Assembly (NCBI RefSeq): GCF_032878875.1
Contig: NZ_CP118157.1
Span: forward strand, 2,480,001-2,544,000
Origin: Microbacterium sp. AB
GTDB lineage: Bacteria > Actinomycetota > Actinomycetes > Actinomycetales > Microbacteriaceae
Direction of reading: 5' to 3'
Length of the DNA: 64,000 nucleotides
Of the stretch, positions 33,406 to 36,635 are shown piece after piece. A program made the translations under genes and the position numbers. The notes beneath the pieces are model-generated. The model worked only from the letters and a program-made list of their open reading frames with translations, was not told where the DNA came from and did not search any database. Numbering within the stretch: position 1 is the stretch's first letter; every line of letters begins with the position of its first letter.

Positions 33406-33566
33406 CGCCGCATGAGGTGGAAGCGGCCTGGACGGCCGACGAGGTCAGAACGGCGGCGGCTCGCCGACGAACGCCTCCGCGTCCGTCGGCTCCCCGCGAG
33501 GGGGTCGGAGACGCGGAAGCGGGCCGCGCAGACGAGCCGTCGACGGGGCACATCGCGCGCCTGTGG

Positions 33567-33572
33567 TAGTTT
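33567..33572 (+). promoter_or_regulatory. putative -10 box (TAGTTT) of the trp leader transcript
   Basis: TAGTTT with an upstream TGG (extended -10 like, TG at 33564) ends 7 bases before the leader ATG at 33580, so the leader RNA probably starts at or next to that ATG. No convincing -35 box is seen. The 174 bases upstream (33393-33566) hold nothing else I can support beyond a 7-bp inverted repeat GCCGACG/CGTCGGC at 33463-33490. Confidence 0.45.
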
Positions 33573-33579
33573 CGGGCGC

Positions 33580-33612
33580 ATGATCGCGAACCGCACCTGG
33601 TGGCACGCCTGA
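33580..33612 (+). CDS. trpL: trp operon leader peptide ([10 protein letters not shown])
   Basis: The ten-residue ORF ATG...TGA encodes [10 protein letters not shown], with two adjacent Trp codons at 33598-33603. It lies 102 bases before a fused anthranilate-synthase-type gene and just before a terminator-like hairpin, the arrangement of a ribosome-dependent trp attenuator. Stalling at the Trp codons when charged tRNA-Trp is scarce would favour an alternative pairing, for example GGCGG (33615-33619) with CCGCC (33644-33648), and release the downstream gene. No ribosome-binding site is seen; the ORF looks leaderless. Confidence 0.85.
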
Positions 33613-33641
33613 CCGGCGGCGCTCTCGCGAACCTCGATACC

Positions 33642-33681
33642 GACCGCCCAGTTCAACCGGATGGGGCGGTCTTCTCTGTTT
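33642..33681 (+). terminator. trp attenuator: intrinsic terminator hairpin with T-rich tail
   Basis: GACCGCCC (33642-33649) and GGGCGGTC (33664-33671) form a perfect 8-bp stem around a 14-base loop, followed by TTCTCTGTTT. It stands 30 bases after the leader peptide stop and 32 bases before the TrpEG/PhzE-type start. The 5' arm overlaps the CCGCC that could pair with GGCGG at 33615-33619 as antiterminator. Confidence 0.85.
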
Positions 33682-33713
33682 GAGGGCAGCCTCGCCCAAG
33701 AGGAGTACGACGC

Positions 33714-35651
33714 ATGACCGGGCACCCTGCCCCCACCCCCGCCACGGCTGCGATCATCGCGCGCCTGGCCGCAGATCCCGCCGCCTCGTTCGCGCTCATC
33801 GCCCGCGAGGGCGGCGACTCCGTGGAGGTGCTCGAGGGAGAGGCGATCGACGTCGAGCTGCTCGGAGACATCCCGCTGACGGATGGCGACGGGAGGCCCC
33901 GAGAGGTGCTCGCGCTCGTCCCCTACCGGCAGGTGCGCGAGCGCGGGTTCGAGGCGCACGACGACGGCGCCCCGCTGCGCTGCCTCACCGTCGACGCGCA
34001 CGCCGCCGTGCCCCTCGCGGATGCCGTCGCCTCGCTGCCCTCGGCCACCATCCCGCTCGCCGACGCCGGCTTCGACCTCACGGACGAGGAGTACGCCGGC
34101 ATCGTCCGCCGCGTCATCTCCGACGAGATCGGCCGGGGCGAGGGCGCGAACTTCGTCATCCGCCGCGACTACGTCGCCGGTGTCGACGCCGACCCGCGCA
34201 CCGCCGCCCTCACGTGGTTCCGGGCGCTCCTCGAACACGAGCGCGGCGCCTACTGGACGTTCGCGATCGTCACGCCCGGGCACGTCGCCGTGGGTGCGAG
34301 CCCCGAGGCGCACGTGAGCGCCCAGGACGGCATCGTCACGATGAACCCGATCTCCGGCACGTTCCGCCATCCCCCGGGCGGTGCGACGGTCGAGACGCTC
34401 ACCGAGTTCCTCTCCAGCACGAAGGAGACCGAGGAGCTCTTCATGGTCGTCGACGAGGAGCTCAAGATGATGAGCGCCGTGTGCAGCGACGGCGGCCGCA
34501 TCACGGGACCGCATCTCAAGGAGATGTCGCGCCTCACCCACACCGAGTACGTGCTGCGCGGGCGATCGCGGCTCGACCCGCGGGAGATCCTGCGCGAGAC
34601 GATGTTCGCGCCGACCGTGACCGGCTCCCCCATGCAGAACGCGTGCGCCGTCATCCGCCGCCACGAGAGGACGCCGCGCGGCTACTACTCCGGCGTCGCC
34701 GCGCTCTTCACGCCGAACGCCGAAGGCGGGCACGATCTCGACGCCCCGATCCTCATCCGCACCGCTTACCTCGAGGACGGACGCCTCCGCGTGCCGGTCG
34801 GCGCGACGCTCGTGCGCCATTCCGACCCGTACGGCGAGGTGAGCGAGACCCACGGCAAGGCCGCAGGCGTGCTCGGCGCGATCGGCGCGATTCCGCGCGC
34901 CATCACGATCGTCCCGGACGACGACGAGCCGGCACCGGCTCGCCGGCTCGCCGACGACCCGGCCGTCGCGGCCCTCCTCGCCTCGCGCAACGTGCGCCTC
35001 GCGCCGTTCTGGATGCAGGAGCAGGGCGCGTCGGACGCGACCCCGCTCGCGGGGCACCGCGCGCTCGTGGTCGACGCCGAGGACCGCTTCACGACGATGC
35101 TCGCCCATCAGCTGCGCCATCTCGGCCTCGACGTGGACATCGTGCACTGGAGCGAGGCGTCGGCCTCGCGCCTCGACGCCGCGGAGCTCGTCGTCGCCGG
35201 CCCCGGCCCGGGCGACCCGCGAGACGACGGCAACGAGCGCATCGCACGGATGCGCGACGTCGTCTCGCGCCGCCTCGCGCGGCATCGCCCGCTGCTGGCC
35301 GTGTGCCTGAGCCATCAGATCGTCGCCGATCGCATCGGCATCGGGCTCGGCTCGCTCGCGAGCCCGCACCAGGGTCTGCAGCTGAGCGTCGACCTGTTCG
35401 GGGAGGAGGCGTCCATCGGCTTCTACAACACCTTCACGGCGCGCGTGACGCCCGGCGTGAGCCGGCTGACGCCGAGCGAGACGCGCTGCGGGGAGGTCGG
35501 CGCCGTCGAGATCGCCGCCGACGCCGCGACGGGCGACGTGTACGCGCTGCGGGGCCAGGGCTTCGCATCGGTGCAGGGGCACCTCGAGTCGATCCTCTCG
35601 CGCGACGGCCTGCGCACGCTCGAGCGCCTCGTGACCCACGCGCTCGGCTGA
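33714..35651 (+). CDS. fused anthranilate synthase-type enzyme (TrpE-TrpG fusion, PhzE-like)
   Basis: The 645-residue protein joins a chorismate-utilising synthase domain (about residues 120-400) to a class I glutamine amidotransferase domain (about 440-640) with Cys531 (VCLSHQ) and His623/Glu625 (VQGHLES). It turns chorismate and glutamine into anthranilate or into aminodeoxyisochorismate. The [14 protein letters not shown] and [14 protein letters not shown] stretches are closest to PhzE, but the trp leader and attenuator upstream argue for tryptophan-linked anthranilate supply. No other phenazine or trp gene is adjacent. GAGGAG lies 9 bases before the ATG. Confidence 0.85.
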
Positions 35652-35741: not shown

Positions 35742-36635
35742 TTACCCGGATCGACGCCGTTCGGAGGTCAGCGCGACCCCGACGAGCACGAGCGCACCGC
35801 CGACGACCTCGTCGACGGTGACCGGTGTGCCCAGCAGGATGCTCCCCGCCACGGTGAACACGGTGATGAGGTTGAGGAAGACGCCCGCGCTCGGGGCGGG
35901 GATGACCTGGAGCGCGATGTTCCAGAGCACATAGGAGACGAGGGAGGGGAAGACCGCGATGTACGCGAGCGACCCCCAGCCCGCGGCCGTGTCGGGCAGG
36001 TCGAGCCCCGAGAACAGCGCGAACGGCGCCATCCCGACCGCCACGACGAGCGCCTGCGACGCCACGGACGCGATGGGAGGCAGCCGCGGACCCGTGCGGC
36101 CCAGGACCGTGTAGACCGTCCACGCCACGATCGCGACGAGCATGAAGAGGCTGCCCGCGGAGAGAGGATGCGACGCCAGCGCGAACGGGTCGCCCCCGGT
36201 GAGGATCCACACGACGCCCGCGAACGCCGTCGCGATGCCGATCACGCCGCGCACGCCCGCTCGTGCGCGGAGGAACACCGCTGCGGCGATCGCGATGAGC
36301 GCGGGATTGAACGCGTTGATGAGCGAGGCGTTGAGCGCCGTGTCGGCGTCGAGCGACAGATAGAGGAAGACGTTGTAGGCGGCGATCCCGAAGACCGCGA
36401 GGAGGACGGTGCGGGGCCAGTTGCGGAGGACGAGCCGCCAGTCCGGCCTCTCCACGACCTGGGCGACCACGAAGAGCGGCGCGACGGCGAGCGCCCAGCG
36501 CATCCACACGAGGCTGATGACGCCCATCTCGCCGACGGCCGTGCCCCCGATGAGGAAGTTGCCGGCCCACGCGAGGGTGGCTCCGACGAGGGCCAGGACG
36601 CCGACCCACGGCCGGACGGCAGGAGCGACGTTCAC
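35742..36635 (-). CDS. EamA/DMT-superfamily exporter
   Basis: The 297-residue protein has ten membrane helices in two EamA repeats: the first at about residues 10-135 (WAGNFLIGGTAVGEM, LRNWPRTVLLAVFGIAAYNVFLYLSL, NAFNPALIAIAAAV) and the second at about 155-290 (AWTVYTVLGR, PSLVSYVLWNIALQVIPAPSAGVFLNLITVFTVAGSILLG). Members export amino acids or metabolites or import nucleotide sugars; the substrate is unknown. It converges with the TrpEG-type gene, which could hint at an aromatic compound, but that is weak. GTG start follows a TAGCGT box by 6 bases. Confidence 0.9.
   Translation of the reverse strand: MNVAPAVRPWVGVLALVGATLAWAGNFLIGGTAVGEMGVISLVWMRWALAVAPLFVVAQVVERPDWRLVLRNWPRTVLLAVFGIAAYNVFLYLSLDADTALNASLINAFNPALIAIAAAVFLRARAGVRGVIGIATAFAGVVWILTGGDPFALASHPLSAGSLFMLVAIVAWTVYTVLGRTGPRLPPIASVASQALVVAVGMAPFALFSGLDLPDTAAGWGSLAYIAVFPSLVSYVLWNIALQVIPAPSAGVFLNLITVFTVAGSILLGTPVTVDEVVGGALVLVGVALTSERRRSG

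Follow-up and report, generated by a model that had tools for sequence, protein, structure and literature searches.

Attenuation in the Escherichia coli trp leader, which has a ribosome-binding site, follows a 1:2, 2:3, 3:4 pairing logic, and the leader described here has this logic in common with it, differing in that it appears to be leaderless and has no Rfam match. The E. coli leader is Rfam family RF00513 (PMC4046766). For Streptomyces lividans TK24, PMC8079986 describes a leaderless leader, trpL1, whose three Trp codons stand ahead of a monocistronic trpE, and a second Trp leader ahead of trpS; the spacing between the −10 box TAnnnT and the start site is given there as 5–7 nt in 88.7%. 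The TrpEG of S. venezuelae is fused and PhzE-like, and a title cited in PMC3111181 reports it to act as an anthranilate synthase instead of an ADIC synthase; the trp attenuator of the same species is the subject of Lin, Paradkar and Vining 1998 (title cited in PMC4833913). Classical trp attenuators are described in Corynebacterium and Streptomyces (Seliverstov 2005, PMC1262725), leaderless polycysteine attenuators in mycobacteria (Canestrari 2020, as described in PMC9031893), and Trp attenuators in Actinobacteria are the topic of Korolev 2015 (cited in PMC4833913). No paper in the literature searched brings Microbacterium, attenuator, tryptophan and leader peptide together; a prediction for Microbacterium may exist in Korolev 2015.

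We analysed a 64,000-nt stretch of the Microbacterium sp. AB genome (the window), in which a candidate leader (33567–33713) stands directly before a gene for a fused TrpE-TrpG. It resembles the trpL1-trpE arrangement of S. lividans, with its leaderless tandem-Trp peptide (MFAHSTRNWWWTAHPAAH), hairpins, U-rich stretch and monocistronic trpE, but trpL1 is described as 18 aa long with three Trp codons (PMC8079986), whereas the window leader encodes 10 aa with two. The S. lividans trpE and the window TrpEG are linked only through the WWW leaders of TrpEG relatives in Kitasatospora and Streptomyces. With S. venezuelae the likeness lies in an attenuator before an anthranilate synthase gene whose enzyme is a fused, PhzE-like TrpEG (PMC4833913, PMC3111181); that attenuator was studied experimentally, and it is likened to the window leader by description, not by sequence. 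The classical attenuators share the double or triple UGG, a GC-rich terminator with a U tract and three-way complementarity, while the core of the window leader is GGCGG/CCGCC/GGCGG, and the passages of PMC1262725 on classical attenuators mention no counterpart of the additional pairing that we call P1. The mycobacterial attenuators likewise use a leaderless short ORF in which a run of codons senses an amino acid, as here, although they sense cysteine and the window leader would sense Trp (PMC9031893). The leaderless variant and the PhzE-like target, which a sequence-only reading of this DNA had singled out as the unusual parts, were thus already known from S. lividans trpL1 and S. venezuelae TrpEG, respectively, and the window leader is a further case of a switch known from Streptomyces, not a new type of switch. 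The present analysis, by which the elements, their conservation, their spacing and the predicted switch are established computationally, adds the near-universal presence of the leader in the sampled genomes of the genus and the lack of canonical TrpE there, together with P1, a spacing rule and two more target genes in the family.

All elements of the window leader lie on the forward strand, and those listed in the sequence-only reading were each confirmed in place by checking the sequence. The extended −10 promoter element TGTGGTAGTTT (33562..33572), read from the sequence and its relatives, contains the box TAGTTT (33567–33572), from which a 7-nt spacer leads to the leader ATG at 33580. The putatively leaderless ORF (33580..33612, encoding 10 aa) contains the tandem Trp codons TGG TGG (33598–33603) and ends in the stop TGA (33610–33612). 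GGCGG (33615..33619), the 5′ strand of the antiterminator, begins 14 nt from the start of the last Trp codon, and its partner CCGCC (33644..33648) is common to antiterminator and terminator. A putative intrinsic terminator follows the leader ORF, consisting of a hairpin of GACCGCCC (33642–33649) and GGGCGGTC (33664–33671), with 8 bp and a 14-nt loop, and a U-rich tail TTCTCTGTTT (33672..33681), with 7 U over 11 nt when the last two stem bases are counted in. The repeat TCGCGAACC, which contains TCGCGA, occurs twice, at 33584 and 33625. GAGGAG (33700..33705) reads as the ribosome-binding site of trpEG, whose ATG is at 33714. Just 5′ of this site a further short hairpin is possible at 33682–33697 (GAGG-GCAG-CCTC or GGGC-AGCCTC-GCCC), which is also present in M. 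barkeri (L001). Generic tools found little at the leader: a promoter scan gave no consensus sigma-70 promoter, a terminator scan confined to loops of 3–8 nt gave no terminator, and an Rfam scan gave three matches, all far under their gathering scores and none of them a trp leader, with no match to the Rfam trp leader family up to E 5; the leader does not belong to that curated model.

To compare the leader with its relatives, we fetched 80 related loci. A short ORF with tandem Trp codons precedes the gene in 76 of them, giving 77 leaders together with the window; of the four loci without one, L040 and L042 offer hardly any sequence ahead of the gene, and L072 and L079 have no such ORF. The tandem TGG occurs in all 77 leaders, as two codons in 67 and as three in 10. 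A −10 box about 5–7 nt before the start codon is the mark of a leaderless start, and a TAnnnT box ends 6 nt (41 leaders) or 7 nt (36 leaders) before the leader start in 77/77, the start having been chosen among in-frame candidates by having the box (with a single candidate in 57 leaders); in 72, this spacing also holds for whichever start is nearest the Trp codons. TG stands at the extended −10 place in 56/77, and upstream of TGTG conservation is weak, with no position above 0.63 bit. Both this constant spacing and the ending of conservation just upstream of the extended −10 support the leaderless initiation that the sequence-only reading had deduced from the missing ribosome-binding site. A TGGTGG short ORF turned up in 110 of 6,899 random 450-nt stretches drawn from these relatives, and one with a TAnnnT box 5–8 nt ahead of its start in 2 of the 6,899. 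The leader layout is therefore more than chance (76/80 loci versus 2/6899 control stretches).

The distance between the Trp codons and the antiterminator is similarly constrained. In all 67 leaders with an exact GGCGG, this motif lies 14 nt (60 leaders) or 15 nt (7 leaders) from the first base of the last Trp codon; the remaining 10 of the 77 lack the exact motif. We examined base pairing in an alignment (A1) and a covariance model (R1) of 61 leaders, leaving out 5 identical and 11 distant or long ones; in L011, L056 and L070 the hairpin was assigned by hand after the script had picked another. The terminator pairing is kept in 98.4% of cells over the 61 sequences, with both-sided changes in 13 cells, all at one pair. 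The antiterminator core hardly varies among these 61 aligned leaders, and neither both-sided change nor covariation was found in it. U tails are poor in several Streptomyces-type loci (2–3 of 11), and the stem and U-rich tail are kept in the Microbacterium loci. The relatives thus provide the support that the sequence-only reading had asked for, namely conserved WW codons and stem with some compensatory changes.

In the ribosome-free fold of the window, the two copies of TCGCGA pair with each other as P1, a 1:2-type pairing whose 5′ arm (33584..33589) falls within leader codons 2–4 and whose 3′ arm (33625..33630) was placed by folding and by the exchange test below; in the window P1 has 6 bp only. 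The proposal that the repeat serves alternative pairing holds in refined form: both copies are present and have a pairing role, which they most likely exert through the self-complementary core TCGCGA by pairing mutually. The arms differ between relatives yet match, as in Jiangella (L061), where TACGCGA pairs with TCGCGTA, and Agromyces (L056), where ACGTCGA pairs with TCGACGT. RNAalifold on a MAFFT alignment, in which the P1 3′ arm is misaligned, recovered the terminator together with a small stem that spans the Trp codons, but not P1; we therefore used an alignment-free exchange of arms between leaders. Over 77 sequences, a leader's own arms paired with a mean of −13.0 kcal/mol and exchanged arms with −10.8 kcal/mol (z = −8.3); 16 dissimilar representatives gave z = −5.1, and in sets of 16, 30, 47 and 77 sequences none of 20,000 permutations was as good as the observed own-arm pairing. 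This advantage is an average effect, a median of 18 of 76 foreign leaders pairing better than the own one, and for the linker of the window the own leader is surpassed by 22 of 62 foreign ones. On average across relatives, P1 is maintained by compensatory change. The exchange test and folding together point to a 1:2-type pairing that a stalled ribosome would be predicted to mask.

We modeled the switch by folding the leaders with a ribosome whose footprint was assumed to reach from 17 nt upstream to 12 nt downstream, counted from the first nucleotide of the A-site codon, in keeping with a reported downstream coverage of about 12 nt (PMC4833913). Capture was counted when the terminator 5′ strand was paired upstream in the unfinished RNA with a mean probability of at least 0.5. 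Capture is predicted in 76/77 leaders for a ribosome placed on the last Trp codon, compared to 11/77 for one on the stop codon and 26/77 without a ribosome. Shifting the ribosome downstream by 3, 6 and 9 nt reduces predicted capture to 70, 25 and 8 of 77; counting against the model, capture is still predicted in 68/77 when the ribosome is set 18 nt too early. In the window, for RNA ends 33650–33659, a ribosome on either Trp codon gives a predicted antiterminator probability of 0.98–0.99, and one on the stop codon gives 0.0; the core has just 5 bp, and at RNA end 33663 the value with a ribosome on a Trp codon is down to 0.71–0.87. As soon as the RNA includes the 3′ strand of the terminator, the prediction favours the terminator despite a stalled ribosome, with 0.99 in the window in every state and a mean of 0.77 over the 77 leaders for a stalled ribosome and a complete hairpin. 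Since the complete terminator is predicted to prevail, the switch would have to be kinetic. As modeled, the antiterminator is mutually exclusive with the terminator, and the position of the ribosome sets which of them is predicted to form.

Within the genus, R1 detects the leader in 58 of 59 genomes, exactly the 58 with TrpEG, although these matches are partly by construction since R1 was built largely from the genus; the one genome without the leader (G192) also lacks TrpEG. Canonical (actinobacterial) TrpE was detected in 0/59 of them at E 1e-100, and fused TrpEG seems to have replaced it in the genus. In the family, 20 of 150 genomes have TrpEG and 133 canonical TrpE; by comparison of the lists, 12 of the TrpEG genomes also have canonical TrpE and 8 have TrpEG alone. 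R1 matches 25 of the 150, including 19 of the 20 with TrpEG, where the match lies directly upstream of the gene. A 1.4-Mb genome (G027, locus L131) has TrpEG close to ispG, and no Trp leader was found on either strand of that locus. The gene ispG itself was found in 53/56 Microbacterium-type loci and in 0/22 other named loci; the three Microbacterium-type misses are L040 and L042, whose upstream flank is nearly missing, and L019, whose flank there extends for about 980 nt. The leader therefore stays with the gene when the neighbourhood changes. For a second, weak match of R1 in the window's own genome (C1:2140929, E 0.039), neither strand of the fetched sequence showed a boxed Trp leader, and the match was treated as chance.

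Six model-match genomes in the family lack TrpEG. Both strands were searched in each, and a boxed Trp leader was found in two (G089 and G136) and on neither strand in G102, G108, G128 and G137. In G136, where no TrpEG and, at E 1e-100, no canonical TrpE was found, the boxed leader MSRNAMQSWWAA, followed by a stop, precedes trpB (L109, reverse strand, 1496 of the reversed locus; TIGR00263, 546.8 bits, cut-off 392). In this leader, GGCGG lies 13 nt from the start of the last Trp codon, and predicted capture is 0.14 free, 1.0 at Trp and 0.16 at the stop. In G089, the boxed leader MHMTTAWWPTFSVG, also followed by a stop, precedes a gene with a methyltransferase domain (L107, reverse strand, 1501 of the reversed locus; PF08241, 27.6 bits), a gene with no known role in Trp metabolism and a case from one genome only. 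Its core is GGTGG, 14 nt from where the last Trp codon begins, and CCACC and a second GGTGG match it in the hairpin; all three strands have therefore changed together. Predicted capture is 0.0 free, 0.87 at Trp and 0.36 at the stop. These two leaders, keeping the design in genomes without TrpEG, give independent support for the attenuator.

The gene behind the window leader (33714..35651) encodes a 645-aa, PhzE-like fused TrpE-TrpG of the anthranilate synthase type, with a chorismate-binding and a class-I GATase (glutamine amidotransferase) domain; its best solved-structure match is 3r74, which we take to be PhzE. The genome has two other chorismate enzymes, for one of which the top assignment is PabB (317.6 bits, cut-off 328.4), and the second passes the isochorismate synthase subfamily cut-off, leaving TrpEG as the only anthranilate synthase candidate; trpD is present. 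We considered C1:2195051, near a TrpG/PabA-like gene, as a canonical trpE and rejected it, its best assignment being PabB, just below cut-off, and trpE_most reaching 287 bits against a cut-off of 518. As the only such candidate, trpEG probably makes the leader a control element of a Trp biosynthesis gene. The four neighbours tested were ispG (upstream of trpEG on the opposite strand), an EamA transporter, an RseP-like metalloprotease (below cut-off) and a pyroglutamyl-peptidase, and no phenazine cluster was found among them. The EamA-type transporter (35742–36635, − strand) is convergent to trpEG, weakly resembles YddG, an exporter of aromatic amino acids, and had no match in the fetched flanks of relatives. 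The leader is absent from two PhzE-type relatives, L072 (P. aeruginosa PA7) and L079 (2501–4576, Streptomyces verrucosisporus); in L079 the PhzE-like gene lies beside DAHP synthase, isochorismatase and transketolase genes.

With a probability of about 0.9, we interpret the element before trpEG as a ribosome-mediated transcription attenuator acting on what is apparently the genome's only anthranilate synthase gene. The conserved WW codons and stem, the compensatory changes and the predicted switch all speak for the Trp attenuator that the sequence-only reading had proposed; we infer the 5′ end of the leader, its leaderless initiation, termination and a response to Trp. RNA polymerase would start at the leader ATG or one base before it, and the ribosome would therefore initiate on a 5′-terminal AUG without a Shine-Dalgarno site. 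When Trp-tRNA is scarce, the ribosome would stall at the two Trp codons, masking the leader codons that otherwise pair past the stop in P1 and leaving GGCGG just beyond its leading edge, free to pair with CCGCC; the terminator could not form in time, and trpEG would therefore be transcribed. When Trp-tRNA suffices, the ribosome would reach the stop codon and cover GGCGG, so that CCGCC would join the terminator and transcription would end. Without a ribosome, P1 would tend to hold the region past the stop, and termination would be favoured.

Other readings of the same features appear improbable. One is that the leader acts mainly on translation, its own translation and folding gating the trpEG ribosome-binding site and not termination. 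Weak U tails at some related loci and the empty result of the generic terminator scan would fit this, yet the ribosome-binding site (33700–33705) lies about 30 nt past the hairpin and takes part in none of the described pairings, and in the Microbacterium loci both stem and U-rich tail have been kept. Slightly harder to sustain is a start further upstream, with TAnnnT a chance or secondary feature and the leader ORF translated through ordinary or weak ribosome binding. Little conservation is seen upstream of the extended −10, the box recurs at 6 or 7 nt in 77/77 while the whole combination arises in 2/6899 controls, and RNA-seq is reported to place S. lividans trpL1 among leaderless transcripts (PMC8079986), against which stand the missing −35 consensus, a 5′ end deduced from sequence, and a 4-nt Shine-Dalgarno core match upstream in 17/77 leaders, some of which, by inspection, stem from the box itself (e.g., TAGGTT).

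The reading to which we assign the smallest weight concerns the enzyme: like PhzE, it would make ADIC for a secondary metabolite, and the Trp codons would regulate a side pathway. The structural match to 3r74 and anthranilate synthase equivalog scores far under cut-off lean that way, but the genome offers no other anthranilate synthase candidate while retaining trpD, canonical TrpE is missing throughout the 59 genus genomes at E 1e-100, and the tested neighbours are not phenazine genes; moreover, the title that PMC3111181 cites describes S. venezuelae TrpEG as an anthranilate synthase rather than an ADIC synthase. Building on the transcription attenuator, we tentatively suggest, as a speculation that is more doubtful than not, that promoter, leaderless Trp attenuator and gene form a portable module, accompanying the fused enzyme that replaces TrpE in the genus and standing before trpB and a methyltransferase-domain gene elsewhere in the family. 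P1 may be a second lock that begins at about nucleotide 5 of the RNA and can hide the leaderless start, keeping the module off by default unless a ribosome catches the emerging RNA.

The leader is a compact, well conserved and testable case of probable attenuation from a leaderless start, on a gene that is apparently the only source of anthranilate in the genus. The 14–15-nt rule between Trp codon and antiterminator, together with P1, yields precise predictions. The leader also suggests that PhzE-like genes of this kind encode the anthranilate synthase used in making Trp, and its model can help to locate more Trp-regulated genes.
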